Below, piece by piece: positions 37,630 through 57,476 of a stretch of DNA of 64,000 bases. Within the stretch, counting starts at the first letter, position 1. Every line of letters starts with the position of its first letter. Source of the DNA: Dyadobacter sp. 50-39 (GTDB lineage: Bacteria > Bacteroidota > Bacteroidia > Cytophagales > Spirosomataceae); assembly GCA_001898145.1 (NCBI GenBank), contig MKSR01000036.1, positions 290,898 through 354,897 on the forward strand, in the 5' to 3' direction. A model generated the notes under the pieces. It was not told the origin of the DNA and did no database searches. It worked only from the letters and a program-made list of their open reading frames with translations. Position numbers and translations under genes: made by a program.

Positions 37630-38703
37630 GTGGAAGGAAAAGAAGACAATTCGTTGGGCGGTGTCAAGGAAATTGCGCGTAGGGCCAACGTTTCTCTGGG
37701 GACCGTGGACCGGGTGATCAACAACCGGGCGGGGGTGGCAGTAAAAACCAGGAACCGGGTAAACGCAATTATTGAAGAGCTCAATTACCAGCCAAACGTG
37801 CTCGCCCGGCGACTTGCCCTGACATCCAGGGGAACCCTGCGGGTTGCAGTTTTACTGCCCGATATTTCAGAAGAAACCGAGTATTGGAAGGCGCCGCTGG
37901 AAGGGATTAATAAGGCGGACCTGGAAATCAGGCAATATGGTGTTCAGGTGGAGCACTACTTTTTTGATCAGAACGTTCAGTCCGTTTTTGCTGAACAAGT
38001 TAACAGGATCATGGCAAATGCCCCCGATGGCGTGCTGATCACGCCGACCTTTGAAAAAGAGTCGATCGCGCTGATGAAATTCTGCAAAAAGAAGAAAATC
38101 CCCTGCGTGCTGATGAACTCGGACATACCCGATCAGCATAGACTTTGCTATATCGGTCCTGAGCTTTTCGACAGCGGATACCTCTCGGGGCAGTTGGTCC
38201 ACTATTGTCTCAAAGAAGGCCAGAAGGCAATGATTGTCAATATCGCCCGGGAGATCGAAAACAACGTGGCGATCCTGCGTAAAGAGGATGGGTTTTTGGC
38301 CTATTTCAGGGAAAAACTTTCCCAGGACCAGCTCGTTCACCTGAATATGACCGATACCGGTTATGCCTCCGTTGCCGCCCGACTTACCGCGCTGCTGGAA
38401 GCACATCAGCAGATTGGCATTATATACGTGACCAATTCCCGGGTCGCATTGGTAGCACAATGGCTGGAATCGATTGGGAGAAAGGATATTGTTCTCATTG
38501 GTTACGATTATCTGGACAAAAACCTGGATTACCTCAAAAGGGGGGTCATCGACTTTTTGCTTTGCGAAAAACCTCAGGAGCAGGGTTACCGCGGCGTGAT
38601 GTCATTGTTTCAATATTTGATATTCTCCACCACCGTCCAGGAGGATTATCTGATACCCATCGATATTGTTACCAGTGCCAATTACCGGTATTATAGAAAT
38701 TAA
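37630..38703 (+). CDS. LacI-family transcriptional regulator
   Basis: A 357-aa regulator with an N-terminal LacI helix-turn-helix (GGVKEIARRANVSLGTVDRV, then INNRAGVAVKTRNRVNAIIE) and the hinge ELNYQPNVLARRLAL. The rest is a periplasmic-binding-protein-like sugar-sensing domain (LRVAVLLPDISEETEYWKAP, VLMNSDIPDQHRLCYIGPEL, IYVTNSRVALVAQWLESIGR). The start is GTG at 37630; no in-frame ATG precedes the helix-turn-helix. First gene of the catabolic island, 58 bp before the first enzyme gene. Three identical-type palindromes downstream are its likely operators; none lies upstream of its own gene. Confidence 0.9.
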   Translation: MEGKEDNSLGGVKEIARRANVSLGTVDRVINNRAGVAVKTRNRVNAIIEELNYQPNVLARRLALTSRGTLRVAVLLPDISEETEYWKAPLEGINKADLEIRQYGVQVEHYFFDQNVQSVFAEQVNRIMANAPDGVLITPTFEKESIALMKFCKKKKIPCVLMNSDIPDQHRLCYIGPELFDSGYLSGQLVHYCLKEGQKAMIVNIAREIENNVAILRKEDGFLAYFREKLSQDQLVHLNMTDTGYASVAARLTALLEAHQQIGIIYVTNSRVALVAQWLESIGRKDIVLIGYDYLDKNLDYLKRGVIDFLLCEKPQEQGYRGVMSLFQYLIFSTTVQEDYLIPIDIVTSANYRYYRN

Positions 38704-38730
38704 GTCTGGCTCTATTTATCAAATCTTTTT

Positions 38731-38746
38731 TCGTGCACGTGCACAG
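38731..38746. promoter_or_regulatory. Putative LacI operator 1
   Basis: TCGTGCACGTGCACAG, 14 of 16 bases matching the perfect palindrome at 40871-40886. Lies 16 bp before the ATG of the first toroid enzyme gene (38762), close enough to block transcription or initiation. Confidence 0.7.
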
Positions 38747-38761
38747 GTTTTTATTTTTCAG

Positions 38762-40636
38762 ATGAAATATCGATATATTATTTCGCTACTGGTTGTTATG
38801 TGCCCTGCCTGGACAGTTCTCTCGCAGTCATTGTCCATCAAGAAAGAGTATGCCTCGACTTTGGTACAACTTTCGGGCACGCTGCTGGAGCTGCAAATAG
38901 ACGGGAACAAAAAGGCCGATTGCGGCGCACTGGCATGTAGCACCTGCCACGTGCTGCATACGCGGGCGGCCGAGGCTGTTTACCCTTTTGCGGTTTCCTA
39001 CCGGATCACGGGTAACAAGCGGTATCTGAAAGGCGCCAAAAACGCAGCAACCTGGCTGATCGGCCAGCAGCAGCCGGACGGGAGTTGGAAAGAAACACCC
39101 GAAGAATGGACAGGTACCACTACCGACCAGCTGCTGATGCTTCTGCTTGCTTATGATGTCATTTCCGGCGAACTGGACAAGCAGGAAAATGCTTCATGGC
39201 TTGCGGCAATCACCAAAGCAGCCGACTATCTTCATCAGGTGATGAAACCCGAGTTTGCCAGCATCAATTATGTAGCCACCACCACAGCCACACTCGCCAC
39301 AGCGCACCAGCTGACAGGGACAGAACGTTACCTTGCCCGTGCACGCGAGCTTGCGCACCGAACGGTTTCTAAGATGGATGAAGGTGGTTTTATCAATGGG
39401 GAAGGCGGCAGGGGAGTAGGGGCCAAATTGGGGATCGATCTTGGGTATGAAATGGAAATGTCGCTTTGGGGGCTGGGCCTCTATGCCAGGATTACCGGCG
39501 ATACTTTGGTTGACAACCGCGTACGCAATGCTTTGAAAACCCATTTAAACTTTATTTATCCGGATGGCTCCATAGACAATTCCTGGGGTATCCGATCTAA
39601 CAAGTGGACGATGTATGGCGGTGCTACTTCGGATGGATGCCAGGCATTGTTCTCGCTTTATGCAGATGATGATCCGCGTTATGCCAGCGCTTCGTATAAA
39701 AACCTGCTTTTTTTAAGAGAGAATATCCTTCCTGGCGGCCTGATCGGCTATGGCCCGCATCACAACCGTGTTTTTGAAACGCAACCATGCATTTACCCGA
39801 CTTTTACCAAAGCAAAAAACCTGGCGATGGCTTATCAGTTTGAGACAACGCAAAGCAGGCCCAATCGGCCTTTGCCGACCGAAAAGATTGGGTGGGTCAA
39901 ATATTTCGATAACCTGGATGTGGTCCAGGTACGGACCAAGAATTTCATGGCGACCATGACAAGCTATCGCTATAAAGACCAAAAGGCGGGCTCTAAAAGC
40001 AAATATATGTTCCGGCCGGATGGGGGCACGATGTCGTACCTCTGGGTAGAAGGCCATGGTGCATTGCAGGTATCGAGTGTGACCGAATATTCCCGGCCCG
40101 AGCCCATGAGCTTTCCCGAAGCTCCTGGCGTAAAATGTCTGACGCCACAGATCTATTACCGGGATTCGATTGGGTATTTTACCAATTTGTTTGAATTCGA
40201 TGCCCGCATGAGTACCAATGCTTTGGATAATGGTCGGTTTCGTGTCAAAGCTAGTGGTGAATTGAAAAACCGGGATTGGATCAATGGCGGTGTCGCTTAT
40301 GCCATTACCTATACTTTTACCGACGATTTCATAGAAAAGAAGGTGGTCCTTACTTATCACGATGCTTTTCCAACGGTGATCATTACCGAACCTTTCGTGA
40401 TGCAGGCTGGGATGGAGATCAGCCAGGCAAATGACAAGACAGTTACTATAAATGCAGGGAAGAAAAATTTTGTTTTCACGACTGATAGAGATGGAAAACT
40501 GATTGTGGGAAAAGATGCTGAGCATTATTGGACGCCCTATCCGGCTATCAAAGCTTTTCCGATAGAAATAGAGATCGCCCCACCGAAGGGAGGCTTTACG
40601 CAGACGGTCATTTACAGGATCGCTTTGGAAAGATAA
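38762..40636 (+). CDS. Secreted alpha/alpha-toroid protein, probable polysaccharide lyase or glycosidase
   Basis: Exported 624-aa protein. The ATG at 38762 follows the operator directly and opens a signal peptide (MKYRYIISLLVVMCPAWTVL); a longer TTG-started frame would run through the operator. The N-terminal 370 residues consist of helical hairpins of alpha/alpha-toroid type (TGNKRYLKGAKNAATWLIGQ, DGSWKETPEEWTGTTTDQLL, NYVATTTATLATAHQLTGTE). The C-terminal 230 residues are beta-rich (YFTNLFEFDARMSTNALDNG, IEKKVVLTYHDAFPTVIITE), as in toroid-plus-sandwich lyases. Cys-rich DCGALACSTCH near residue 58 is unusual. No family can be named with certainty. First enzyme of the island. Confidence 0.72.
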   Translation: MKYRYIISLLVVMCPAWTVLSQSLSIKKEYASTLVQLSGTLLELQIDGNKKADCGALACSTCHVLHTRAAEAVYPFAVSYRITGNKRYLKGAKNAATWLIGQQQPDGSWKETPEEWTGTTTDQLLMLLLAYDVISGELDKQENASWLAAITKAADYLHQVMKPEFASINYVATTTATLATAHQLTGTERYLARARELAHRTVSKMDEGGFINGEGGRGVGAKLGIDLGYEMEMSLWGLGLYARITGDTLVDNRVRNALKTHLNFIYPDGSIDNSWGIRSNKWTMYGGATSDGCQALFSLYADDDPRYASASYKNLLFLRENILPGGLIGYGPHHNRVFETQPCIYPTFTKAKNLAMAYQFETTQSRPNRPLPTEKIGWVKYFDNLDVVQVRTKNFMATMTSYRYKDQKAGSKSKYMFRPDGGTMSYLWVEGHGALQVSSVTEYSRPEPMSFPEAPGVKCLTPQIYYRDSIGYFTNLFEFDARMSTNALDNGRFRVKASGELKNRDWINGGVAYAITYTFTDDFIEKKVVLTYHDAFPTVIITEPFVMQAGMEISQANDKTVTINAGKKNFVFTTDRDGKLIVGKDAEHYWTPYPAIKAFPIEIEIAPPKGGFTQTVIYRIALER

Positions 40637-40782
40637 GATTCTTCTTTTTTAATGCGTGGCATACCACCATTTGAACAAATCCTAAACAATTAATTGCCCA
40701 AAACACCTTCCAGTACACTTTTATACAATTAATCTTCATAAGGACGATAAAAAATTTGGTCGCTATTTTTTTTACTTTAATT

Positions 40783-40798
40783 TTGTGCACGTGCACGA
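40783..40798. promoter_or_regulatory. Putative LacI operator 2
   Basis: TTGTGCACGTGCACGA, 15 of 16 matching the perfect copy. Lies 126 bp before the sugar isomerase ATG and 88 bp upstream of operator 3, a spacing that would allow looping. Confidence 0.72.
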
Positions 40799-40870
40799 TC
40801 GTTAATCACTCCTTACAAAACAGTCCAGGAAACCAGTGATAAGTCAGGCACATTTTATTTTAATCATTTT

Positions 40871-40886
40871 TCGTGCACGTGCACGA
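40871..40886. promoter_or_regulatory. Putative LacI operator 3, perfect palindrome
   Basis: TCGTGCACGTGCACGA, a perfect 16-bp palindrome 22 bp upstream of the isomerase ATG at 40909. LacI-family sites commonly are 14-20 bp palindromes with a central CG or like step. The intergenic region 40637-40908 contains this site, operator 2 and the promoter. Confidence 0.78.
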
Positions 40887-40908
40887 AATTTTAGGTAGAA
40901 AGAGAAAG

Positions 40909-41838
40909 ATGAATAACCCTATCGACATATGTTGTGCATATCTCTATATCATTTCACGATATGGATATCCTCCGCCTGTTGAGGATACGGTCAGCCATAT
41001 CCGGGAAATGGCGGGGCTGGGGTTTTCGTCCATTGAACTAGAAGGAATAGGTAAAAAGAACATTGAATACCTTTTCAAGCATAAAAACACAATTAAAGAA
41101 GCATTGGAGCAGTACGGTTGCAAGGTGCCCATTTTATGCCTTGTACTTCCGCAATTGGGAGCGGATCTGGACGCAGCCGGCGAAGCCGAATGTTTGGAAC
41201 TATTTGAAATGGGTTGCGAAACGGCCCGGTTTTTCGGGGCGGAGGGTGTATTGGACAACGGCCCCCTTTTACCGCTGCAATATCCTGCAAATATGCCCGT
41301 CATGCGCCATTACAGCGGCAGTGAAATCGATAGCCTGCGACCTTTATCTGCTTCCCGCTGGGAGCGTTACTGGGAAGAACTAGCGGACAGATACCGTTCA
41401 GTTTGTGCTATTGCCGCCCGATACGGACTTGATTATCACCTTCATCCATGCGAAGGCAGCCTGACGCCGTCTACTGATTCTTTTTTGTTTTTTGCCGAAG
41501 CAGTTGGTGCGCCGAACCTGATGTTTAACCTCGACACAGCAAACCAATTTCTGATCCGGGAAAACCTGCCGCTCAGTGTGATCCGGTTGGCGCACAGGGT
41601 TAAATACATCCACATTTCAGATAACACAGGTCAACAGGCTGGCCACCTTCCGCCCGGAAGCGGAAACATCAATTGGAAAATTTTCTTTTCCGTGTTGCGC
41701 GAAGTGGGTTTCAACGGCAGGCTTGCCATTGATGTAGGCGGGGCCGAAACTCAGATCGAGGACCTGGATGCTGCCTATTTAGAAACGGCACAGTGGCTCA
41801 GGCAGCAATGGTCCAGCGATCTTAGTGTAAAGTTGTAA
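40909..41838 (+). CDS. Sugar phosphate isomerase/epimerase-type TIM-barrel protein
   Basis: A 309-aa protein of the xylose-isomerase-like TIM-barrel superfamily (AP_endonuc_2). Features are MAGLGFSSIELEGIGKKNIE near residue 35, GLDYHLHPCEGSLTPSTDS near 175, the metal-binding region NLMFNLDTANQFLIRENLPL near 205, and VKYIHISDNTGQQAGHLPPG near 232. There is no signal peptide, so it acts in the cytoplasm on an imported sugar or acid. The ATG at 40909 is chosen because the upstream GTG lies inside operator 3. Followed by the GH28 gene after 35 bp. Confidence 0.85.
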   Translation: MNNPIDICCAYLYIISRYGYPPPVEDTVSHIREMAGLGFSSIELEGIGKKNIEYLFKHKNTIKEALEQYGCKVPILCLVLPQLGADLDAAGEAECLELFEMGCETARFFGAEGVLDNGPLLPLQYPANMPVMRHYSGSEIDSLRPLSASRWERYWEELADRYRSVCAIAARYGLDYHLHPCEGSLTPSTDSFLFFAEAVGAPNLMFNLDTANQFLIRENLPLSVIRLAHRVKYIHISDNTGQQAGHLPPGSGNINWKIFFSVLREVGFNGRLAIDVGGAETQIEDLDAAYLETAQWLRQQWSSDLSVKL

Positions 41839-41873
41839 GTGTTTTATTATGAAGTAATTAGATTAAAAAACTA

Positions 41874-43403
41874 ATGAGTGTGCCTGATAAAAGAAATGTC
41901 GGATCAACTTGGATGCTGCTGTTGGCATTTCATTTTCTGTTTGCCGGAAACCTGACAGCCCAGCAATATGACATCCGGAATTCGGGTGCGATAGGGGATG
42001 GTATCACCGATAATACCCTTTTTATTCAAAAGGCAATCGATTCGTGCACCATCACGGGCGGCACCGTGTACATTCCCAAAGGGACTTACCTGACCGGTAC
42101 CTTGAATTTGAAAAGCAACGTAACCCTCCATCTTTCAGTGAATGCGACTTTGCTCGGGCAGCCTGCGGCAAAATTTTACCCTTACCAGGACTCAGGAATC
42201 CACTTTTATGGGGAAGATTGGGCCAAACAGGCTTTGATTTTTTGTAAAAACCAAAAAAACGTAGCCATTGAAGGCAAAGGGACCATTGACGGCCAGGGAG
42301 CCGCATTTGTGACCACTACCTTGAAAAAGCCGGACCGTTATAAAAACAGACCCTACCTGCTCTGGTTTGCAGGATGTGAAAATGTGTCGGTGACCGGAGT
42401 GCAATTGCGAAATTCAGCATTCTGGATGCAGCATTATCTGGGCTGCAAAAAAGTGCGCATCGACGGGATCAGCATCTGGAACCACTCCAATAAGAACAAC
42501 GATATGATCGATATCGACGGGTGCAGCTACGTGACCATTTCTAACGTCAACGGCGATTCAGATGATGACGGGATTACCATCAAAAGCACCTCACCGCTTA
42601 TATCCGAGCACATTGTAATTTCCAATTGCATCCTCAGTAGCCACTGCAGCGCCATTAAATTCGGCACGGAATCTGTGGGGGGCTTCCGGAATATTGCCAT
42701 TTCAAACTGTGTGATCAAGCCCTCGGCACAAACGACGACCATTTATGGCAAACCCGCCGGGATCGGAGGACTGGCCATGGAGATCGTCGACGGCGGGATC
42801 ATGGAGCATATTGCAATCAGTAATCTTGTGATCGACGGCCCGGAAGTACCGCTCTTTCTAAGACTTGGTAACCGCGCGCGCAAGTACATGGCCACAGCAG
42901 CGGTGCCCAGGCCCGGGATTATGCGCGATATCAGCATTTCTGACGTGGTCGCCACCGGCGCGGGAATTACAGGCTGCTCGGTTTCGGGTATCGCCAAAGC
43001 GAACGTTGAAAATGTTTCCTTCAACAACATCCGCATCGAGTTTGCGGGCGGAGGGGTATCCACTGACGTAACACGGAAAATAGAGGAACTGGAAGATTTG
43101 TACCCGGAAGGGACGATGTTTGGCAAACTTCCCGCGTTTGGATTTTTTATCCGGCATGTGAAAGGGCTCCGGATGTCCGGTATCAGTATGTCGTTCAAAT
43201 ATCCGGAGCAGCGGCCAGCGTTTTTTATAGATGATACCAAAGATTTTGCAATTCTTAATATCGATACAAAACAGGCAGGACCATCTGTGCTTGTGCGCAA
43301 TAGCCTGGATGGACTGGTGTCGGCAAAGAGTAATGGCAAGCCTTCGGAGGATTTCCTTAAAAAGGATGGATCCTCGAAAAACATCAAAGCCAGACTTGAC
43401 TAG
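41874..43403 (+). CDS. Glycoside hydrolase family 28 (polygalacturonase-like), secreted
   Basis: A 509-aa right-handed beta-helix enzyme with a signal sequence (MLLLAFHFLFAGNLTAQQ). The pectinase/pectate-lyase-3-like start YDIRNSGAIGDGITDNTLFI is typical. Catalytic-region features of GH28 are NNDMIDIDGC (Asp210, in place of NTD) and GDSDDDGITIKS (Asp231-Asp232), followed by SSHCSAIKFGTESVGG near 255. The usual GHG and RIK motifs are not canonical, so the substrate may be a rhamnogalacturonan- or uronate-type glycan rather than plain polygalacturonan. Linked to a hexuronate-type transporter gene downstream. Confidence 0.86.
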   Translation: MSVPDKRNVGSTWMLLLAFHFLFAGNLTAQQYDIRNSGAIGDGITDNTLFIQKAIDSCTITGGTVYIPKGTYLTGTLNLKSNVTLHLSVNATLLGQPAAKFYPYQDSGIHFYGEDWAKQALIFCKNQKNVAIEGKGTIDGQGAAFVTTTLKKPDRYKNRPYLLWFAGCENVSVTGVQLRNSAFWMQHYLGCKKVRIDGISIWNHSNKNNDMIDIDGCSYVTISNVNGDSDDDGITIKSTSPLISEHIVISNCILSSHCSAIKFGTESVGGFRNIAISNCVIKPSAQTTTIYGKPAGIGGLAMEIVDGGIMEHIAISNLVIDGPEVPLFLRLGNRARKYMATAAVPRPGIMRDISISDVVATGAGITGCSVSGIAKANVENVSFNNIRIEFAGGGVSTDVTRKIEELEDLYPEGTMFGKLPAFGFFIRHVKGLRMSGISMSFKYPEQRPAFFIDDTKDFAILNIDTKQAGPSVLVRNSLDGLVSAKSNGKPSEDFLKKDGSSKNIKARLD

Positions 43404-43436
43404 ATTTAAAGAAAGAAACCGGTTGACGTATATACA

Positions 43437-46400
43437 TTGTCGTTATTTAAAATCATCGGTCTGCTCGTGGGAGCACTTTTTACCTTCTGTCATGCAAATG
43501 GCAGGCAGGCAGATCATTTTTTGTTTGATATGGGAACGCCGGTTTCCAAAGTTGAAAAGGGTTTTATACGCATAACGACTTCCACAAAATATTCCAAAGA
43601 ACGCCGATATGGCTGGCTGTCGGCTCCCCGGCAGGCTTTTGATACGACCTACAACCGCATTGCCGATTCGCTTTTTCGGGATGGTGTTGCCGGCGTGGGA
43701 AGTTTGGTGTTTAAGGCGGATGTGCCGCCGGGCGAGTATTTTGTGTCGCTTACAGTAGGCTATCCCGGAGCGCGGGCAATGCCCATGGAAATTATGGTGA
43801 ATGACAGCGTTCTGGCAACGATCACAGTTCCCTGGTATCGACTTCCATACCGCTCTGTCCGCAGCAAAGTGATGATTGGAAAGATAGGAGCAATTGTAAA
43901 AGTAAAAGGCATCGGACCTGCCCAATTAGCGGGTATTTATAGTCTGGAAGTCAGGCCGGTAGCGGCTTGGCCCGTGAATACTTTAACTAAAGGGCCCGAC
44001 ACAGACCTAACCGAAATGACTTCCGCGGCAGTCTCATTGGAGAAAGAACTTGGCAATAATCCCGGGAATGCGGCTTTGAAAAACCGATTGTATATCTTAC
44101 AAAAGCACATCACTGCCGCTAGATTTTACGAGCAGGCAGGCTGGTCTGCGGAGGTGCGGAAAACGAGGATGAACCAGATCCAGCGCATGTATGCGGCGAT
44201 CGACCTGCTCGATCAGGTCGTGGCCGATCGGGCTTCGCCATTGTATGATAAGTCCCTGTATCTTTTGGCCAAAATACATTACTGGCTGTATAAGCAAGAC
44301 AGTGAGTTGCTCACAGAAAGTAAAGCGCCTTTGTTTTTTGGTGAACTGGCAAAAGTTTTTCCCGATCATGAGCTGATCAGCATGTACAATGGCGATCAGA
44401 TCGAGGATCCCTACGTTTCGGATGTAGATATGCAAAATGCGCCGGATTGGGCCAGGTTCCAGCACGAGGCGATGGGACGAATGCTTAAAGTGATTCATTG
44501 GTGGGTCAATGAGCGCCAGGCTCCCAATGGCGAACTGGGCGGAAAGTATGCCGATGACGTGGAAATGCTACGCTGGTGGCTGCCTGCGATCCTGGGTGCG
44601 GACGATGCAACTGCCCGCAAAGGTTACACCCGATTGGCCGATGGAATCTGGAACAGTGGGGAGCTTGTGAGGGGTTATGATAAAAAAATAGACGATGTCG
44701 AGCACGCTGCGGAGCTTTTCCGGGATTCGCACGCGGGCATGTTTCTGGTGCGCTATGGCGACCCGGCTTACGTAGAGCGTGCGATGATCAGTATGCAGAA
44801 CTTTGATAAAGTCTGGTCTGGTACGACGCATTTAGGACACAGGCATTTTAAATCGTACTATTTCTCCGCGACAGAAGCATTGGAAAATTCGCCTTACGGC
44901 GTGGACGTTCCGCTGAATGCCCGCGCACTGCTCACCGGATTATGGGCGGCGTGGTACAATCGCAATCCTACTTTGATCAGGCAATTTTCCGAGTGGGCCA
45001 GTGCATGGGTAGCCGACGCAGGAAGAACGGAGAACGGCAAACCTGCGGGCATCATTCCGCCAGCTGTCTCATTTAAAAATGAGACGATCGGAGGTGATTC
45101 TAAGAAATGGTACGATCCCGGACTCCGATACAATTATTACCAATGGGATCATCTGGGGCACATCGCAGAGCTTTACAGTTTCCTGAATGGAATGCATGAC
45201 CTGACCGGCGATAAGTCCTTTCTTAATCCGATAAACAAGGTGGCGGAATTGATGAGAAGCCGGGATGAAGAAATGGAAACAGCCCAGCCCGGCTCGTTGA
45301 AATGGGTAGAACAAACACTGACGGCCGGGGGCGACGATAGAACAGCCGGGGCAAATCCGTTTGGCAACCTATTTGCCATGACTGCCAAATTGGGCGGTGA
45401 TAAGCAGTATAACCAACTGATCAGCCAATATGCCTCGCCTTATAATAAGTACCAGCTAACCGGCCAGGTGAAGGAGTTGCTTGGTGGTTTTGACCAGATC
45501 CTGAATTCTCTCCGCTATAATTTCCCGCTGCTAACCAGCGAAGCAAAATTCACCGACCGGGTGTATGTGCGGGGAAGCGACCTGCTGACGGGGATGTACA
45601 CAGGCCATTTCGGAAGGGGATTTGAGTATCCGGCATTGGTGGCAACTTGGAAAAATACAGGCAGAAATGTATCCGTATTTGTCAGAAAAGGGGATCGTTC
45701 TTCCGCGCTTGTTTCGCTTTACAATGCGGGCAATGCGAAACAGGTGGAGATGAATACCTGGATGCTGGCGCCCGGCGAGTATAGGCTGCGCATTGGAACC
45801 GATGAAAATGATGATACTGTGTCCGAAAAGCTGATTCACGAAGAATTGGTGACGATCCGGGAGCGGGTCGAGGTGATCCGGATTGAGCTTCCTGCCAAAA
45901 GTCAGGTAGTGGTCAGGATAGATTTGGAAAGGGTATTTGAGCCGAATAAAACCGCGTTACCGGATATTGCAATCGGCGCCGCCGACATACAGGTTTCGAA
46001 AAATGCAAATAAGCTCGGTGTTGAAGCTCAGGTACATAACATTGGAAATGCCCAATCAGCGAAGTCAATGGTATATCTGGCTATAAATGAATTGGTTGTT
46101 GATAGCCTAGCATTGGCACCCATTGAAGCCCCCAATGATCTGGTGCCTCGTATGCAGAAAGTTCATTTCAATTTCAATCCAAAAGCCGGTCAGAATCAGA
46201 TCACGGTTAAGGTGAAAAGTGGAGGTCAGGAACTGAATTCCAATAATAATACAGCGACGGTCCCATATGCAGATACGATCGCCAAAGTGCTGCCGGTTCT
46301 TCCATTTCCGCAGGTGGTAACGCAGGGAGTAAATCCAATGTCTTTCTTAGCTTCGGCGGATTTTAAGGCAAAAGGTTTGGACGCGGGGCAAATGCAGCGG

Positions 46401-48779: not shown

Positions 48780-50013
48780 CCCAAATCGTTATTTGTGTGT
48801 GTTGATGCTCTTTTCGCTTTGGGCAACTGTTGCCCGGGGCCAGGCGAAAAAAGAGGATTATCTGTTGGCCGTCAACCAGATAGCCCAATACATTTCGGGC
48901 CCGATGATGGACGAGCAAGGCAGGTCGAGGTGTGATTACAATATGACCGAGGGGAAGTGGTACGAGTACGAAGTTCCCTGGCATACCGGTCAGGCTGTCA
49001 ACGCGTTGCTGGCGGCTTACAAACAAACCGGCAACAAAAAATACCTCGCCGCGGCAATCAAAGGAGGTGAGTATTGGGCAGGGTTGGAAATCAAAGATCA
49101 TCCGGTGCTCAAAGGCATGGTGAACGCGCACCATGGCGATACGATCGGGGAGGATTTTATCGTCTTTGCAACCGTTTCCGATGGTACACCTGGTATTTAC
49201 GAACTCTCGCGGGTAACCAAAAATGACAAATATGCCAAAGTCGCCACATCGGCCGCCTATTGGATGATGAAAAATATGTACGATGCTGAAAAAGGCATTT
49301 GCTACGATAATATCGATGCGAAGACCGGCGAAGTGCTCAAAGAAAACAGCCCTTTCTGGAAGAATAAAGCAGAGCAAACCTTATTCGACGTTTCCCGCCC
49401 CAATACAGAAGGCTGGCTGTTCAAAGATGCCTTCGAATTTTCCGGTGATAACAAATTCAAAGATGCTTTTATCAATCTTTGCAATAGCCTGATTGAAAAA
49501 CAGGGCCCGGAAGGGGTTTGGATGAGCTTTATGCCCAATTCGGCAGAAGCCCGCTCGTTTCACCCGCGCTTTTCATTGTGGTATGCCGAGTCGCTGATCC
49601 AGGCATTTAAACTGACCGGCGATAAAAAGTACCTGGATGCAGCTTCCCGCACGGCCGAGGTTTTCGCCAAAGCGCAGCAAAAAGACGGCACGATCTATTA
49701 CGATAACTACCTTAATGGCAGGCAGCCGGATAAAGGTTCGATTACCGGTTCGGCCGCGGCATTGGCCGGGATTGTCTGGATGCAGCTTTCCCAAAACGGC
49801 TACAAGCAATTTGACGAAAATATTGAAAAATCGGCCAGCTGGATACTGAAAAATCGCTACGCTCAGGATCATCCCGATCCAAACTTGCGCGGTGCGGTGC
49901 TCGAAACCCGCATCCGGTTCAGAAAAGGCAAAGCGTGGCTTACCAACCGCGACACCGGAAGTACTTTTGCCCTTCGCTTTCTGGTAGATTACATCGGCTA
50001 CAAATTCAAATAA
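48766..50013 (+). CDS. Secreted alpha/alpha-toroid glycosidase-like protein
   Basis: A 415-aa exported protein with a signal peptide (YLCVLMLFSLWATVARGQ) and repeated helical hairpins of the six-hairpin type (WHTGQAVNALLAAYKQTGNK, FHPRFSLWYAESLIQAFKLT, SITGSAAALAGIVWMQLSQN). An acidic/aromatic motif RCDYNMTEGKWYEYEVPWHT near residue 55 may belong to the active site. The fold occurs in unsaturated glucuronyl hydrolases (GH88/GH105) and related enzymes, but their signature motifs are not clear, so the activity is open. It starts inside the end of the preceding gene (14-bp overlap), indicating translational coupling. Confidence 0.75.
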   Translation: MKWNNPNRYLCVLMLFSLWATVARGQAKKEDYLLAVNQIAQYISGPMMDEQGRSRCDYNMTEGKWYEYEVPWHTGQAVNALLAAYKQTGNKKYLAAAIKGGEYWAGLEIKDHPVLKGMVNAHHGDTIGEDFIVFATVSDGTPGIYELSRVTKNDKYAKVATSAAYWMMKNMYDAEKGICYDNIDAKTGEVLKENSPFWKNKAEQTLFDVSRPNTEGWLFKDAFEFSGDNKFKDAFINLCNSLIEKQGPEGVWMSFMPNSAEARSFHPRFSLWYAESLIQAFKLTGDKKYLDAASRTAEVFAKAQQKDGTIYYDNYLNGRQPDKGSITGSAAALAGIVWMQLSQNGYKQFDENIEKSASWILKNRYAQDHPDPNLRGAVLETRIRFRKGKAWLTNRDTGSTFALRFLVDYIGYKFK

Positions 50014-50042
50014 ATCCTACTTATAACCGCTCTCGATTCTTT

Positions 50043-52880
50043 ATGAAAAAACTACTCACTAACTATGGTACCCTCGCGGGTATGCTGGTCGCTTTTTTGC
50101 TCTTTTTTTCCGGTTCGCCTGTTTTTGGGCAGCAAAGCCATGGCAGTGTAAAAGGGCAGGTTACGGGTGTTAACGGTGAAATTCTTCCGGGCGCTTCAGT
50201 TTTTATCAAAGGGACCAATATTGGTAGCGTTACCGATCTGGCAGGAAACTATTCCTTGGTCAACGTCCCGGCCGGAGCGCAAACTATCACCGTCAATTAC
50301 ATGGGATTTGCGCCGGATGAACAATCGGTCGGGGTTATTGCAGGCAAGACTGTTTTTGCAGACGCTAAACTGAAATCGACGGACCTGACCTTGGGCGAGG
50401 TAACTGTTACCGCATTGCTCGAAGGCCAGCGCAAGGCACTGAACCAGCAGCGGAATTCGGACAACATCAAGCAGGTTATTTCTGCGGATGTAATGGGACG
50501 TTATCCCGATCTGAACGTAGCCGAGTCATTGCAGCGTTTGCCGGGGGTTACCATCGGTAGAAACAGCAGCGGGGAAGGTGCAACGGTGCAAATGCGTGGT
50601 ACGCCGGGCAATTTTACCAACATTAACGTGAACGGCGAGCAGATCATGGGAACCCAGGAAGACGGTTCGCGGAACGCGCAATTGGACGTGATCCCGATCA
50701 ATGTGCTTTCATCGATGGAGGTAGTGAAAACGCTTACGCCCGATCTGGACGGCGATGCGATCGCAGGTGTGGTGAATATGAAGACGCCGACGGCTGCTAC
50801 CTTGAAATCCAGATTCGCAGTTGACCTAGGGGCAGGCTACAATAACCTGCGCAGCAACCTGAACGGAATTGGAAATGCTTCCTGGGGCAAACGGTTCCTG
50901 GCAAGTGAAAGCAGCCCGAACGGGAAGTTGGGCGTGATTGCGACGGGAAGTTATTTCCGTACCAAAAACGGCTACGATGAGATCAGGGCGCAGGTTTGGG
51001 AGCAGAACGACTATGGAAAAGGAGAAATTTATTTCCCTACCGATATCCGTCTGTTGTATGTGGAAAACCAGCGGACGCGGATCGGTACTTCGGCCACAGT
51101 CGATTACAATTTCAGCCCGACGACCAATATCATTGCCAATTTCATGTACAGCACCCACAATAACGAACTGACCCGTTACCGCAAACGTACCCGGATGCAG
51201 ACTGCACGGAATGTGCTGGGAGAGGACGGGGTATTTACCAATCCGAGGGGACGGGGTTATAACGAGATCAAGGCTGCGACCGAGGACAACAGCAACCTGA
51301 ATTTCAATATCCAGGGCGAAACCGTGGTAGGTAGTGTGAAGCTTGATGCAGGGGTTTTCATGAATAAATCCAAGTTTGTAAACAGGTCGGGGATATATAA
51401 CTACATCACCGGCAACATCCCGCTGTCCATTTCTGATATCAGCACCGACTATTTGTCAGCTTCCGGAACGGACTGGAAAAACGATGCTTCCCTTTATACC
51501 TACAATACCGTGGAACGCGACTGGTGGAATACCAATGGTACCAATTTTACGGCCCGCTTAAATGCAAGTGTTCCTTATCAGATGGGCAATAATTCGGCTT
51601 TTTTCAAGGCTGGTGTAAAAGTGAAACGCATGCATAACGAACGCTCCCGCCCCAACGAAACCATTGTGACAACGTATGCAGGTGATGCCGCCGCAGGAAA
51701 GCTGACCAATTTCTCGGGTTCGCCGGAAGTTTCGGATGACTTATTGGATGGAAATACCAATTTCGGATTGGGTGTGGATAAAGACAAAACGATCAATTTC
51801 CTGAATGATAACCTTGGTACTGACCTCTTTCCAATCAACGTAGGCGCAACCAGAAACAGCATCGATTCTTACTACTACGATGCCCTTGAAACCGTTTCTT
51901 CCGCCTACCTGATGAACCGGATCCAGTTCAACAAGCTGATGTTCCTGATCGGGGTCAGAATGGAAAAAACCAATGTGGATTACAAAGGGAATATCATCCA
52001 GACCGACGCCGATGGAAACTGGGCCTCGACCACGCCCAATCAGCAGACCAATGATTACCTGAAAGTACTTCCGAATGTTCAGTTCAAGTACGACATCGAC
52101 AAATCATCGCTGGTACGTGCCGCACTCACTTACGGCTACTCGCGTCCCAACTTCGTGGACCTGGTACCGGGCCGACTGATCAGCATCCTGAGCGAAACCA
52201 TCACAGACGGTAACCCACAGCTGCAACCAGCATTTTCGACCAATGTGGACCTGATGTATGAAAAATACCTGGATAACCTGGGGATTATTTCAGGAGGTTT
52301 TTTCTACAAAAAGATCAACAAGTTCCAGTATAATAGCGTGTTTGCGCTGGCCGGAAACGAATTCGAGGGAGCCGAGCGCTACACAGGTTGGAGATGGTTT
52401 AGAACCTTAAACGGGGAAAGTGCCAATGTGCTGGGTATGGAGCTGAATGTACAGGCTAACCTGACTTTCCTGCCGGGGATACTGAAAGGGATTTCGTTGA
52501 TGGCCAATTATACCTATACCCATTCGAATGCCGACGCGCAGTTCCGCAAGGATCTCCGGCTGCCCGGCCAGGCAGATCATACTGCCAACGGTTCGCTGGC
52601 TTTCACTCACAAAAAGTTCACGATCCAGGGTAACCTCAACTACAATGGAGCTTACACGGTATTGCTCGGCGACCAGGATGCGACCGACGTGATCCGTAAC
52701 CAAAGGATCCAGATCGACGCCAATGCCAGTTACCGGATCACCGACAAGATCTCCTTTTATGTGGAAGCACAAAACCTGACGAAAGCGCCGCAAACGGACT
52801 ATTTCGGGGAGCGCGAAAGAATGTACCAGAAACAGTTCTATTCTTTCTGGGGCCGTGCCGGGGTGAAGTTTAGGTTCTAA
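50043..52880 (+). CDS. TonB-dependent receptor with carboxypeptidase-like N-terminal domain
   Basis: Outer-membrane transporter, 945 aa. The ATG at 50043 starts a signal peptide (LAGMLVAFLLFFSGSPVFG); the longer frame upstream is an overlap with the previous gene. An N-terminal carboxypeptidase-regulatory-like domain (GSVKGQVTGVNGEILPGASV) and plug domain (ISADVMGRYPDLNVAESLQR, LPGVTIGRNSSGEG, LTPDLDGDAIAGVVNMKTPT) precede a large beta-barrel ending FWGRAGVKFRF. The plug motifs match the class common in Xanthomonas and Caulobacter (TIGR01782) rather than SusC, and no SusD gene follows. Likely imports an oligosaccharide released by the neighbouring enzymes. Confidence 0.92.
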   Translation: MKKLLTNYGTLAGMLVAFLLFFSGSPVFGQQSHGSVKGQVTGVNGEILPGASVFIKGTNIGSVTDLAGNYSLVNVPAGAQTITVNYMGFAPDEQSVGVIAGKTVFADAKLKSTDLTLGEVTVTALLEGQRKALNQQRNSDNIKQVISADVMGRYPDLNVAESLQRLPGVTIGRNSSGEGATVQMRGTPGNFTNINVNGEQIMGTQEDGSRNAQLDVIPINVLSSMEVVKTLTPDLDGDAIAGVVNMKTPTAATLKSRFAVDLGAGYNNLRSNLNGIGNASWGKRFLASESSPNGKLGVIATGSYFRTKNGYDEIRAQVWEQNDYGKGEIYFPTDIRLLYVENQRTRIGTSATVDYNFSPTTNIIANFMYSTHNNELTRYRKRTRMQTARNVLGEDGVFTNPRGRGYNEIKAATEDNSNLNFNIQGETVVGSVKLDAGVFMNKSKFVNRSGIYNYITGNIPLSISDISTDYLSASGTDWKNDASLYTYNTVERDWWNTNGTNFTARLNASVPYQMGNNSAFFKAGVKVKRMHNERSRPNETIVTTYAGDAAAGKLTNFSGSPEVSDDLLDGNTNFGLGVDKDKTINFLNDNLGTDLFPINVGATRNSIDSYYYDALETVSSAYLMNRIQFNKLMFLIGVRMEKTNVDYKGNIIQTDADGNWASTTPNQQTNDYLKVLPNVQFKYDIDKSSLVRAALTYGYSRPNFVDLVPGRLISILSETITDGNPQLQPAFSTNVDLMYEKYLDNLGIISGGFFYKKINKFQYNSVFALAGNEFEGAERYTGWRWFRTLNGESANVLGMELNVQANLTFLPGILKGISLMANYTYTHSNADAQFRKDLRLPGQADHTANGSLAFTHKKFTIQGNLNYNGAYTVLLGDQDATDVIRNQRIQIDANASYRITDKISFYVEAQNLTKAPQTDYFGERERMYQKQFYSFWGRAGVKFRF

Positions 52881-52925
52881 AAACAACGCTATATCAATAT
52901 CAATTAATTTAACATACTTTTTACA

Positions 52926-53723
52926 ATGCCTATTATTAAAAAAGGAACTGCTGATCAGCTGGAAATCAGGATTTTTGAAAACAGGGAACAGTTGGGTGAT
53001 GATGCCGCAAAAACGGTGGCAGACAAGATCAACGAGCTGCATCAAACGCAGGAAGTGGTGAATATCATCTTCGCTGCCGCTGCTTCCCAGAACGAATTTC
53101 TGGCCAGGCTGATCACGCTGGATATAGACTGGACACGCGTCAACGCTTTTCATATGGACGAGTATATTGGCCTTCCGGTGGGTGCACCGCAGCATTTTAG
53201 TTATTTTTTGGGTGGACAAATTTTCAACCGGGTGCCTTTTGCGAATGTGTTTATTTTGAATGGAGCTCCTGACGATACGGAAGCGGAGTGCCAGCGTTAC
53301 TCGGGATTATTAATGCAATATCCGACCGACATTACCTGCATGGGAATTGGTGAAAACACGCATTTAGCTTTCAACGATCCTTTCATTGCCGACTTTAATG
53401 ACAGCAAGCTGGTCAAAGTCGTGGAACTGCATGATGCCAGCCGGCAGCAGCAGGTTAATGAAGGCTGTTTTGATGCCTTGGCAGAAGTTCCCAAAATTGC
53501 TTTCACGCTTACCGTGCCTGCTTTACTCAAAGCAAAAGCGATTTACAGCATGGTACCGGGCCCGTCTAAGTCCCAGGCGGTATATCATACTTTGGTCGAT
53601 GAGATATCCGAGAAATATCCTTCTACCATTTTGCGTACTTTGCCCAATGCGGTTTTGTTCCTGGACCAGGCCAGCGCGGAGATGGTTCAGGAATCGGAAT
53701 TACAACCCGTTGTTTTTGAATAG
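52926..53723 (+). CDS. Glucosamine-6-phosphate deaminase-like protein (NagB family)
   Basis: A 265-aa cytoplasmic protein of the NagB/6-phosphogluconolactonase superfamily. It keeps the substrate-phosphate loop (IIFAAAASQNEFLARL), the proton-transfer Asp region (VNAFHMDEYIGLPVGAPQHF) and the C-terminal MVPGPSKSQAVYHTLVDEIS. In the active-site stretch it reads MGIGENTHLAFNDP where E. coli NagB reads GVGNDGHIAFNEP: His is kept, but the catalytic Asp141 position is Asn and Glu148 is Asp. So it may act on a different amino-sugar phosphate or be altered in activity. Lies 45 bp after the receptor gene and 51 bp before a transporter gene. Confidence 0.86.
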   Translation: MPIIKKGTADQLEIRIFENREQLGDDAAKTVADKINELHQTQEVVNIIFAAAASQNEFLARLITLDIDWTRVNAFHMDEYIGLPVGAPQHFSYFLGGQIFNRVPFANVFILNGAPDDTEAECQRYSGLLMQYPTDITCMGIGENTHLAFNDPFIADFNDSKLVKVVELHDASRQQQVNEGCFDALAEVPKIAFTLTVPALLKAKAIYSMVPGPSKSQAVYHTLVDEISEKYPSTILRTLPNAVLFLDQASAEMVQESELQPVVFE

Positions 53724-53774
53724 CCGTTTGCAATTTGGTTTTAATTAAAAAATATGCAGCCCTTTTCTTATTGA

Positions 53775-55067
53775 ATGATGATCAACAACACGACCGGAAA
53801 TTACAGGTGGGCGATCTGCACGTTGCTATTCTTTGCCACCACGATCAATTATCTCGACCGGCAGGTATTGGGATTGCTCAAACCCGTACTTGAATTGCAA
53901 TACGGCTGGACAGAGCAGGATTACGGTTACATCGTCATGGCTTTTTCAGCTACCTACGCCATTGGTCTGGTGGTTTTTGGTCGGGTTGTGGATCGGATCG
54001 GGGCTAAAACGGGGTATACCATTTCGGTAACCATATGGAGCATTGCGGCCATGTGCCATGCTTTGGTGACCAGCTCTCTGGGTTTTGGCATAGCGAGAGC
54101 GGCATTGGGAATTGGCGAATCGGGTAATTTTCCGGCAGCCGTAAAAACGGTCACCGAATGGTTCCCAAAACGCGAACGCGCATTGGCAACCGGTATTTTC
54201 GACTCAGGTTCCAATATTGGTGCCTGCGTTGCACCGATTTTGGTTCCCTGGCTTTTGGGCGTTTACGGCTGGCAGGCGGCGTTTATCATCACCGGAGCGA
54301 TCGGCTTTGTCTGGCTGATTGCCTGGCGGCTGATCTACCAGCATCCTGATCAGAATTCAAAACTATCTGCGGAAGAGCTTGCTTACATCCGTATCGACGA
54401 CGAAACCAATCAGGATCTTACTCCGGCGGAAAAGATCCCGTGGACCAAGTTATTTACCTTAAAACCGACCTGGTCTTTTATCATGGGAAAATTCCTGACC
54501 GATCCGATCTGGTACTTTTTCCTGTTCTGGCTTCCTTCCTATTTTAGTACGACCTTTAGCCTGGATCTCAAAAAACCAGGCTTGCCGCTGGTGATTGTGT
54601 ATTCGGCGGCCACAATCGGAGCTATCGGGGGCGGTTTGTTATCGTCCTGGTTTATCAAGAAAGGCTGGTCGGTTCCCAAAGCGCGAAAGGCCGCACTGCT
54701 GATTTCTGCGCTTTGCGTGCTACCGATTATCGGGGCGCGATTCGTGTCGGATATGTGGGTGGCTGTGGGGCTGATTGGCCTGGCAGTGGCGGGTAACGCG
54801 GGGTGGAGCTCCAATATCTATACCATTGTTTCCGATATGCTTCCCAAAAGTGCGGTCAGTTCCGTGATTGGCATTGGCGGGATGGCGGGTGCGATTGGCG
54901 GCGTTTTGTTTCCTTTGTTCATTGGCTATACCCTCGACTTTTACAAAGAAGCCGGTAACCTGGTGGCGGGTTACAACATCATATTTATTGTGTGCGGCGT
55001 ATCCTTTCTGATCGCCTGGCTGACAATCCATTTCATCACTCCCAGGATGAAACCTGTGGAGCTTTAA
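53775..55067 (+). CDS. MFS transporter, hexuronate/anion:cation symporter type (ExuT-like)
   Basis: A 430-aa inner-membrane transporter with 12 predicted helices. Family motifs: WAICTLLFFATTINYLDRQV at the N-terminus, FGRVVDRIGAKTGY (MFS loop 2-3 motif), ARAALGIGESGNFPAAVKTV and TEWFPKRERALATGIFDSGS, the ExuT/sialate/phthalate-family signature. Such proteins bring hexuronates or related sugar acids into the cell by proton symport. Together with the GH28 enzyme and isomerase it points to an acidic sugar as one product of the locus. Confidence 0.92.
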   Translation: MMINNTTGNYRWAICTLLFFATTINYLDRQVLGLLKPVLELQYGWTEQDYGYIVMAFSATYAIGLVVFGRVVDRIGAKTGYTISVTIWSIAAMCHALVTSSLGFGIARAALGIGESGNFPAAVKTVTEWFPKRERALATGIFDSGSNIGACVAPILVPWLLGVYGWQAAFIITGAIGFVWLIAWRLIYQHPDQNSKLSAEELAYIRIDDETNQDLTPAEKIPWTKLFTLKPTWSFIMGKFLTDPIWYFFLFWLPSYFSTTFSLDLKKPGLPLVIVYSAATIGAIGGGLLSSWFIKKGWSVPKARKAALLISALCVLPIIGARFVSDMWVAVGLIGLAVAGNAGWSSNIYTIVSDMLPKSAVSSVIGIGGMAGAIGGVLFPLFIGYTLDFYKEAGNLVAGYNIIFIVCGVSFLIAWLTIHFITPRMKPVEL

Positions 55068-55098
55068 GTCTTATTCACTCCCGTTATGAAAACCCGTT

Positions 55099-57042
55099 AT
55101 GAAGACCATCACTCCTGTACTACATCCACTGCAATCACTCACTGCTGAGGAAATCAGCCAGTTCGTTGCATTCATCCGTCGTGAAAAAGGGTTTCCCTAC
55201 GACACCACCCGTTTTGTTTCTATTGTACTCAAAGAACCTTCCAAAGAGGAAGTTGCTCAATTCAACAATGGGGGACAAGCGCCTTTAAGAGCTGCATTCG
55301 CGGTTATTTACGACAGCCTGACTGGCATTACCCACGAAGTTACCGCGCTGATCAATGAGGAGCAGATCATCAGATGGAACTCCATTAACGGCGTACAGCC
55401 GACGATGACCGCCGACGAGCAAATTGAATGTGAGCAAGTCATCAAAAATGATCCTGCTTTTGCGGAAGCATTGAAAAAACACGGCGTGACCAATCCCGAA
55501 CTGGTCATGATCGATATCTGGACGGCCGGTAACTACGGTGCGGAAGAAGAAAGTAAGCTGCGGCTTGCCCGTCCGCTCTGTTTTGTCAGAAGCGACGAGA
55601 CCGACAATGGATATGCCCGACCGATAGAAGGCTTGCGCCCTGTCGTCGACCTTCGACTGATGAAACTGATCCGAATAGAAGATTACGGTTACACGCCCCT
55701 TCCGCAACAATCGGCCAATTACCGCGCCGACCGCGTGAAAACCTTCCGGACGGACATTAAACCGCTGGAAATTTCACAACCAGAGGGACCGAGCTTCACC
55801 GTAAACGGATACGAGGTCGCCTGGCAGAAATGGGATTTTGTAGTAGGTTTCAATTCGAGGGAAGGTTTGGTTTTACATAATATCACTTACAATGACGAAG
55901 GCAATGTGCGATCGATCCTGTACCGCGCATCCCTTTCAGAAATGGTGGTCCCTTACGGGGATCCGACGTCAACCCAGAAACGTAAAAATGCTTTCGATAC
56001 CGGCGAATATGGCATGGGGCAATGTGCCAATAGCCTTACATTGGGCTGCGATTGTCTGGGTTATATCCATTACCTGGACGCGGTGATGAACAACAGCCGT
56101 GGCGAGATCGTGACGATCCCAAACGCAATTTGTATGCATGAAGAAGATTATGGCATTCTCTGGAAACATACCGATCGCCGCGATGGAAAAGCCGAGGTAA
56201 GACGTTCGAGAAGATTGGTGATTTCTTCCATTTCCACCGTCGAAAATTATGAATACGGCTTTTTCTGGTATTTCTATCAGGACGGTAATATCCAGTTTGA
56301 GATCAAGCTGACAGGCATTTTGTCGCTGGGTACGCTGCCGGAAGGTGTAAAATCCAAATACGGTACGCTCGTAGCGCCGCAGGTTTATGCGCCTAACCAT
56401 CAGCATTTCTTCAATATGCGCCTTGATTTTGATTTGGACGGAGTATCCAATTCCGTGTACGAACTGGATGTTGTCGCCGAAGAGGAAGGGGAGGATAATC
56501 CTTTTGATAATGCATTTTATGCAAAATCAACCCTGCTGGACACTGAGAAGAATGCAAGAAGAAAAATGGACCTGGCCTCAGCCCGTACCTGGAAAATCGT
56601 CAATCCCAAATCCAAAAATGCGTTGGGCGAACCGGTTGGCTATAAACTGATGCCGGGCGATAACTGTTTTCCATTTGCCAATGCGCGCACCAACTGGTAC
56701 CGCAGGGCGGGATTTGTGCAAAATCATTTGTGGGTAACCCCGTTTGAGGAGTCCGAAATGTTCGCAGCCGGGGATTATCCCAATCAACATCAGGGTGGAG
56801 ACGGGCTGATCAAATGGACGGAGCAGGACCGGAATGTCGCCGATCAGGATATTGTGGTTTGGTATACCATGGGTCATACCCATATTCCGAGAATGGAGGA
56901 TTATCCGGTAATGCCCACGGCATATATTGGGTTTTTATTAAAGCCAAATGGATTTTTTACACAAAATCCTGCTAACGATGTACCGCCTTCTGTTCCCCAG
57001 AAAGCCGGAAACGCGTCATCGGGATCTTCCTGCTGCCATTGA
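55099..57042 (+). CDS. Copper-containing primary-amine oxidase (TPQ enzyme)
   Basis: A 647-aa amine oxidase that would convert a primary amine to aldehyde, ammonia and peroxide. The topaquinone site is TVENYEYGFF with Tyr384; the catalytic base is in NAFDTGEYGMGQ (Asp300); copper ligands are His434 and His436 in PNHQHFFNM and His595 in MGHTHIPRMEDYPVMP. N2- and N3-type domains precede (residues 10-200). No signal peptide is present, so it appears cytoplasmic, unlike E. coli TynA. The C-terminus ends in SSGSSCCH, an odd Cys/His tail that could bind metal. Position as the penultimate gene of a glycan locus is unusual. Confidence 0.92.
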   Translation: MKTITPVLHPLQSLTAEEISQFVAFIRREKGFPYDTTRFVSIVLKEPSKEEVAQFNNGGQAPLRAAFAVIYDSLTGITHEVTALINEEQIIRWNSINGVQPTMTADEQIECEQVIKNDPAFAEALKKHGVTNPELVMIDIWTAGNYGAEEESKLRLARPLCFVRSDETDNGYARPIEGLRPVVDLRLMKLIRIEDYGYTPLPQQSANYRADRVKTFRTDIKPLEISQPEGPSFTVNGYEVAWQKWDFVVGFNSREGLVLHNITYNDEGNVRSILYRASLSEMVVPYGDPTSTQKRKNAFDTGEYGMGQCANSLTLGCDCLGYIHYLDAVMNNSRGEIVTIPNAICMHEEDYGILWKHTDRRDGKAEVRRSRRLVISSISTVENYEYGFFWYFYQDGNIQFEIKLTGILSLGTLPEGVKSKYGTLVAPQVYAPNHQHFFNMRLDFDLDGVSNSVYELDVVAEEEGEDNPFDNAFYAKSTLLDTEKNARRKMDLASARTWKIVNPKSKNALGEPVGYKLMPGDNCFPFANARTNWYRRAGFVQNHLWVTPFEESEMFAAGDYPNQHQGGDGLIKWTEQDRNVADQDIVVWYTMGHTHIPRMEDYPVMPTAYIGFLLKPNGFFTQNPANDVPPSVPQKAGNASSGSSCCH

Positions 57043-57065
57043 AAAACGCATAAAAGCATCGCGCA

Positions 57066-57476
57066 ATGGAAAGAAACGGAGATATCATTAAACAACCTTT
57101 GGGCTTTGTGGGCGAGGCGACCAAAATGGCTGTCGCCGTCGGGATTCTGCTATTGCCTAAATGCGGGTTGTGCCTGGCTGCCTATCTGAATTTGCTCAGC
57201 ATATTTGGGATATCCTTTCGAAGTTATGCTTCTTGGGTCTTGCCGGGATTGCTGTCGCTGCTGATCATTAACTTGATTGTAGCGTATTTAAAGGCCCGCA
57301 AAATGGGTAGCTATTATGCGTTTGCGCTTTTGGCGGTGGGGGTTGGGTTACTTTTTATCGGGAAGGTCTGGCTTTTGCAGGAGGCTTTAAGCTATGCTGG
57401 GTTATTTTTTATGGCCGCCGGATCTATTATTCAGATAGCGCAGTCGCGCAGGGTGTGTAGCCGTTCGTATGTATAA
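57066..57476 (+). CDS. Small four-helix membrane protein, unknown family
   Basis: A 136-aa hydrophobic protein with about four membrane helices. A Cys pair occurs at the first helix (LLLPKCGLCLAAYLNLLSIF), and the C-terminus is basic (QIAQSRRVCSRSYV). The CGLC motif inside a helix recalls MerC-like metal transport proteins, but no family can be named. It starts 23 bp after the copper amine oxidase gene, so a role in copper supply to that enzyme is a tempting but untested inference. Confidence 0.7.
   Translation: MERNGDIIKQPLGFVGEATKMAVAVGILLLPKCGLCLAAYLNLLSIFGISFRSYASWVLPGLLSLLIINLIVAYLKARKMGSYYAFALLAVGVGLLFIGKVWLLQEALSYAGLFFMAAGSIIQIAQSRRVCSRSYV

Follow-up and report, generated by a model that had tools for sequence, protein, structure and literature searches.

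A putative LacI-controlled, SusD-less glycan-use locus in Dyadobacter sp. 50-39

Amino-sugar operons of the nagAB type are known, and so are loci for pectin or rhamnogalacturonan I (RG-I) with a GH28 rhamnogalacturonidase of the BT4146 type. In Xanthomonas campestris, the carbohydrate utilization loci containing a TonB-dependent receptor (CUT loci) combine a regulator, such a receptor, an inner-membrane transporter and enzymes, without SusD; the TonB-dependent receptors characterised in Bacteroidetes are said there to show no very significant similarity to those of Xanthomonas (PMC1790865). Bacteroides caccae handles chondroitin with PUL25, which comprises PL35, GH88, GH109 and a glucuronyl dehydratase, and the same source defines polysaccharide utilization loci (PULs) by a SusC/SusD pair (PMC12269599). 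We here describe ten co-directional genes at 37630-57042 (plus strand) of a 64,000-nucleotide stretch, the window, which corresponds to contig position 290898-354897 of the 7.7-Mb genome of Dyadobacter sp. 50-39.

We lean, if only slightly, towards reading these genes as a LacI-controlled, SusD-less locus for uptake and breakdown of a polysaccharide containing both hexuronate and beta-N-acetylhexosamine. We infer the following order of steps. Oligosaccharides would enter through a receptor of the TIGR01782 type. In the periplasm they would be cut by the exported GH28 and GH20-like proteins and by three putative enzymes called tor1, tor2 and N-part. A transporter of the major facilitator superfamily (MFS) would import the hexuronate, which separate hexuronate genes of the genome could degrade. 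In the cytosol, a NagB-like protein and an isomerase would process the second product, either an amino sugar or something derived from one. The LacI regulator would sense a product, and the operator-like sites O1-O3 would be freed.

Receptor layout and conservation

Protein families were assigned by scanning the ten proteins with Pfam and NCBIfam models and judging the scores against the curated cut-offs; signal peptides and localisation were judged by eye. The intergenic gaps range from -14 to 61 bp, with the exception of 236 bp from tor1 to the isomerase open reading frame (ORF), and the ORF list of the window has no entry of at least 150 aa between 57042 and 57476.

The TonB-dependent receptor (50043-52880), which carries an N-terminal carboxypeptidase-regulatory domain according to Pfam, reaches 460 bits with TIGR01782 (cut-off 310) versus 75 bits with the SusC model TIGR04056 (cut-off 368). 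Its ORF opens at GTG 49935, although 50043 is the likelier start. A SusD was not matched among the ten window proteins at E values up to 0.01. Since the SusC model is missed and SusD is absent from the ten, the locus lacks the SusC/SusD pair of a SusCD-type PUL. What it has, a regulator, a TonB receptor, an inner-membrane transporter and a degradative enzyme with no SusD in ten proteins, is the make-up of a CUT locus.

The initial annotation had noted a receptor without SusD, and the scores bear this out. It had also written that the TIGR01782 type replaces SusC/SusD. Such a swap is not seen: the receptors of the window and of six relatives pass TIGR01782 in all seven cases and TIGR04056 in none, and we dropped the idea. 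That the locus fits no known PUL type holds for the SusCD type, but the SusD-less receptor layout is that of a CUT locus (PMC1790865). No publication was recognised as describing this gene set in a literature search whose coverage leaves out most subscription journals, which does not prove that there is none. Proteins of about 500 aa beside the receptors of marine relatives were considered as SusD candidates; the three scanned all have tails of the type IX secretion system and none is a SusD, while two of them match a beta-helix, one over the cut-off.

The arrangement is not peculiar to the window. A contig scan with the giant protein encoded in the middle of the locus led to D. bucti, D. koreensis, D. 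psychrotolerans and Spirosoma terrae. The three Dyadobacter relatives keep the window order LacI, tor1, GH28, N-part, GH20-like, tor2, receptor, NagB-like, MFS; two of the three have the isomerase, and no amine oxidase, the last gene of the window locus, occurs in the stretches taken from their clusters. A profile search with tor2, the marker gene, yielded 8 of 395 genomes of the phylum, 12 of 222 of the own family and 9 of 79 of the family f17, genomes already known being counted. In 20 clusters with tor2 we found the NagB-like gene 19 times, GH28 19, GH20-like 18, MFS 14, the isomerase 12, N-part 10, tor1 9 and the amine oxidase twice. These clusters span six Bacteroidota families; as 12 of them belong to one family, 7 of those to one genus, the counts are not independent.

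Of the 25 rows compared, four contig-end fragments and G312, where tor2 was not seen, are left out of the 20; G372, which starts at a contig end, and G391, on an 18-kb contig, are included. The cluster stretches were limited in length, so that a gene scored absent may sit beyond the stretch, and the fragments of G586 were left out. LacI was overlooked by the ORF picker in D. bucti though present, and in G632 it lies beyond the stretch taken. The one cluster in which the NagB-like gene was not found is G023, a genome 78% complete; the GH28 of G307 was counted despite only 29% identity.

Judged by these sequences, we are dealing with one conserved locus, beyond a chance neighbourhood. The gene set singled out by the initial annotation is indeed kept together elsewhere, across genera and families. 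Plasmids yielded zero matches to tor2; the GH20 part as query brought up 82 plasmid records, all of them spanning less than 80% of it. The GH20-like gene was rejected as a cluster marker: relatives of 31-35% identity in L038 and L039 stand without other cluster genes.

Some clusters hold further genes. In the marine-type loci L050, L052, L054, L057, L105 and L153 a gene for an Nramp-type metal transporter is present, in five of the six directly 5' of the isomerase gene. An MFS2 gene and a gene for a PhyH-type dioxygenase lie beside or inside the cluster in L048 (6380-10431, with SIS and TIM-barrel genes in the same stretch), L030 (22741-24923) and L100 (212-2282).

The LacI regulator and its predicted operators

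The first gene (37630-38703) encodes a LacI-family regulator with Pfam LacI and Peripla_BP_4 domains over cut-off and orthologues in related clusters. The window has three copies of the palindrome TTCGTGCACGTGCACGAA with up to three mismatches; 100 shuffles had none. O1 (38730-38747; three mismatches versus O3, with counterparts in relatives) lies 5' of tor1, O2 (40782-40799; two mismatches) and O3 (40870-40887, the palindrome itself) lie 88 bp apart 5' of the isomerase gene. With a 16-base core and at most one mismatch, the whole genome contains only O2 and O3, and a reversed-pattern control found nothing.

The sites recur in relatives, three each in L101, L100, L028, L030, L031 and L037 and two each in L032 and L029. 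A pair 78-89 bp apart is placed 5' of the isomerase gene or, where this is missing, 5' of GH28; in G400 (L049) the intergenic stretch from LacI to the isomerase contains two sites of a related kind. In L034, L103 and L104, clusters without this LacI, operator-like sites were not found. This recurrence, together with the absence where this LacI is lacking, argues for binding of LacI to O1-O3, and the locus is probably LacI-regulated via these predicted operators.

The operator evidence has its weak points. The operator matrix was built from the same sites that it scans, and at its threshold of 11 shuffled sequence gave three matches; weaker matrix matches (11.3-14.7) came from L048, L052, L055, L056 and L145. 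The pattern scans for the palindrome are independent of the matrix; one of their matches, in G636 and with one mismatch, is outside the cluster. The palindrome of L145 (410-427; contig C8 of the own genome), with a score of 14.7, stands 64 bp before a GFO_IDH_MocA-type ORF and is followed, at about 8 kb, by a NagA-like/NagB-like pair.

The operators also touch upon gene starts. The isomerase ORF could begin at GTG 40873; this codon is inside an operator-like palindrome, which makes ATG 40909 the likelier start. The start of tor1 is likely ATG 38762.

Chemistry of the putative substrate and the competing explanations

Two kinds of chemistry meet in the locus. The amino-sugar side is represented by the GH20 domain of the giant protein (43437-48779), a 1780-aa fusion of N-part (residues about 1-840), CARDB (842-941), GH20b (953-1077) and the GH20 catalytic domain. 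The latter scores 31.1 bits with PF00728 (cut-off 22.3) and has a D-E pair at residues 1226-1227, which aligns with that of solved hexosaminidases and is kept in all ten aligned GH20-like sequences. GH84-like proteins of marine relatives have a D-D pair in four of four, which we take to be the GH84 catalytic pair. Together the two pairs point to 2-acetamido sugars.

The uronate side is represented by GH28 (41874-43403; exported by eye; PF00295 76.7 bits, cut-off 22.9) and by the MFS transporter (53775-55067; MFS_1), which is of the galactonate/hexuronate type; its best NCBIfam model is the D-galactonate transporter TIGR00893, with 239 bits versus a cut-off of 395. Relatives contain GH88, and two of three of their GH2 proteins tested pass the beta-glucuronidase model NF007538, one of these two being from G312; uronate linkages are therefore to be expected. 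In the own genome UxaC is found beside genes read by eye as UxaB, UxuA, KdgK and 2-keto-3-deoxy-6-phosphogluconate (KDPG) aldolase; UxaE was not found there. In G248 an MFS orthologue (65%), KDPG aldolase, KdgK, UxaC, NagB-like, NagA and GH20 stand side by side. The coexistence of uronate and amino-sugar enzymes suggested by the initial annotation is supported, and a mixed polymer gains from the beta-glucuronidase, GH88 and GH84-like proteins of the relatives and from the G248 set.

With the glucosamine-6-phosphate deaminase model TIGR00502 the NagB-like protein (52926-53723; Pfam Glucosamine_iso) reaches 124 bits versus a cut-off of 236.9, while another NagB of the genome, on C18, is over the cut-off. 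We here adopt the residue numbering and roles (phosphate-binding loop, Arg ligand) that we presume to apply to NagB. Compared with solved NagB proteins, in an alignment that is loose at the phosphate loop, this loop has become AAAASQ, and Arg is lacking where E. coli has R172 in our alignment; the equivalents of D72, H143 and K208 are kept and E148 is replaced by Asp. A loop of this kind occurs in 31 of 34 sequences, paralogues outside clusters being counted (exceptions: L146, L160 and L055). The loss of the phosphate ligands suggests, without proving it, an unphosphorylated substrate.

The subfamily is found in 32 of 395 phylum genomes (E up to 1e-50); NagB-like relatives with up to 49% identity occur on plasmids, in other phyla too. 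In 11 of 16 loci its members are near genes of a NagA-like family of about 395 aa, three tested members of which pass the NagA model TIGR00221; amongst the 16, L153 and L158 are clusters of the present kind and the others are not. These NagA-like neighbours make amino-sugar work likely. Relatives of the LacI regulator (47-49%) accompany NagA-like/NagB-like genes in L149 and L152. The loci L147, L148, L149, L151, L152 and L160 combine NagA-like, NagB-like and GFO_IDH_MocA-type genes, with MFS2 in five of the six; the MocA-type protein of L147 has a glycoside 3-dehydrogenase model as its best match, below the cut-off.

The isomerase/epimerase (40909-41838; AP_endonuc_2, Pfam 93.8 bits; no signal peptide by eye) is of the xylose-isomerase-like TIM-barrel type. 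The initial annotation spoke of toroids. This stands for tor2 (48766-50013), an exported protein with six Pfam families over cut-off, all of which we take to be alpha/alpha toroids; it is weak for tor1 (38762-40636; exported by eye, possibly a toroid plus a beta domain), with two toroid-type matches, both under cut-off; and for N-part no family match is behind it. A GH88-like nature of tor2 was discarded at a profile-comparison probability of only 10.9%.

The giant fusion exists, but it does not define the system, for it was seen in just two genomes, that of the window and G636. Eight further clusters have N-part/CARDB and GH20-like as two distinct genes, and the start of the unfused Dyadobacter GH20-like protein reads as a signal peptide of its own. 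In the two fused cases the end of CARDB continues in frame into the start of GH20b, stop codon and signal peptide being gone. An assembly error was considered and rejected: the second genome, G636, has the same 1780-aa ORF and junction.

The last gene (55099-57042) encodes a copper amine oxidase (PF01179 558.6 bits; NF008559 933.7 bits, cut-off 651; both passed). A gap of 31 bp separates it from the MFS gene, which it adjoins in G636 too, and it is therefore probably co-transcribed here. Its listing as a cluster member by the initial annotation, and any role as a core gene, we do not uphold: it was not found in 18 of the 20 clusters, and a copy anywhere is seen in three of eight genomes. All the other families named, i.e., LacI, isomerase, GH28, GH20, NagB-like and MFS, as well as this oxidase, received their Pfam or NCBIfam match. 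The Dyadobacter genomes G632 (L206:7325-10481) and G636 (L207:8452-11497) have a second copper amine oxidase, 31-32% identical to that of the window; its neighbours are an additional NagB-family gene and genes read by eye as a mannose-type phosphotransferase system (PTS); the vicinity of an amine oxidase and a NagB-family gene recurs in these two genomes.

Several facts weigh against the mixed polymer. The NagB-like and MFS proteins stay below their curated cut-offs, and tor1, tor2 and N-part are unassigned. The window cluster itself has no NagA-like gene, beta-glucuronidase or GH88. GH28 points to alpha-galacturonate, and G523 and G391 have tor2, NagB-like and GH28 with the GH20-like gene absent. 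Chiefly because of GH28 and these two genomes, the strongest competitor is a pectin-like substrate. The locus would then serve pectin or rhamnogalacturonan, with GH28 as the key enzyme and with GH20-like and NagB-like proteins recruited to non-amino sugars, the latter for example to isomerise a hexuronate or deoxy-uronate. The near-universal presence of GH28 in the clusters agrees with this, as do its best NCBIfam model, the rhamnogalacturonidase BT4146 (NF049898; 272.4 bits, below the cut-off of 500), the oligogalacturonate-lyase-like protein of PL22 type, UxaC and UxaE in relatives, and the altered phosphate loop. The D-E and D-D pairs, the NagA-like company of NagB-like kin and the beta-glucuronidase of relatives speak against it. 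Nor is a uronate isomerase missing, for UxaC is present in 15 of 15 genomes searched; NagB-like as its substitute was discarded on this count. Overall we regard the pectin explanation as rather unlikely.

Still less probable, and indeed doubtful, is that the locus targets nothing but hyaluronan or unsulfated chondroitin, with tor1 and N-part belonging, as remote relatives, to known families of toroid lyases. Beta-glucuronidase, GH88 and the GH20/GH84-like set of the relatives would fit, as would G211, in which GH20 and NagB-like have a heparinase II/III-type protein next to them. Solved glycosaminoglycan lyases are mostly a toroid plus beta-sheet, and one PL35 glycosaminoglycan lyase is from Spirosoma (PMC12088678). 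Among the ten window proteins, in contrast, no sulfatase or known lyase was matched, and PDB sequence searches with tor1, tor2 and N-part gave no useful match at E up to 1. Also, we know of no role of GH28 in glycosaminoglycans of the animal type. That the genes are ordinary neighbours with no shared task, as an IS3-type transposase piece (36348-36965) and a group II intron reverse transcriptase gene (58532-59806) on the flanks and the lineage-limited amine oxidase might suggest, is very improbable in view of set and order conserved across genera and of shared operator-like sites.

If a polymer of hexuronate and beta-N-acetylhexosamine is the substrate, we would have a defined and testable SusD-less Bacteroidota system for an acidic amino-sugar polymer and three protein families to characterise; the NagB subfamily might break the rule that the family handles phosphorylated sugars. 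The operator could be used as a reporter to find the inducer. The boldest version, a widespread and hitherto undescribed system of Bacteroidota for a glycosaminoglycan-like polymer, with SusD-less receptors, new enzyme families in tor1, tor2 and N-part, and a NagB subfamily whose substrate is an amino sugar or amino-uronate lacking phosphate, is tentative and more apt to fail than to hold.

Comparison with described systems

The known systems resemble the locus in part. With nagAB operons it shares the closeness of NagB-like kin to NagA-like genes; in contrast to them, the window lacks NagA, misses the deaminase model and has a changed phosphate loop and R172-aligned position. Its GH28, its hexuronate-type MFS and the hexuronate catabolism of the genome recall pectin/RG-I loci, whereas the low rhamnogalacturonidase score (272 of 500), the GH20-like and NagB-like proteins and the missing SusCD set it apart. 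Like PUL25 of B. caccae (PMC12269599), the system would break down uronate plus N-acetylhexosamine and has GH88-type and toroid-type proteins, GH88 in the window's relatives only; the ten window proteins, however, have no match to PL35, GH109 or GH154. With the CUT loci of X. campestris (PMC1790865) it shares the regulator, TonB receptor, inner-membrane transporter and enzymes and the lack of SusD, and the model of the window receptor, TIGR01782, is the "TonB-Xanth-Caul" subfamily. The window locus differs from them in belonging to Bacteroidota, in its larger enzyme set and in its gene families.

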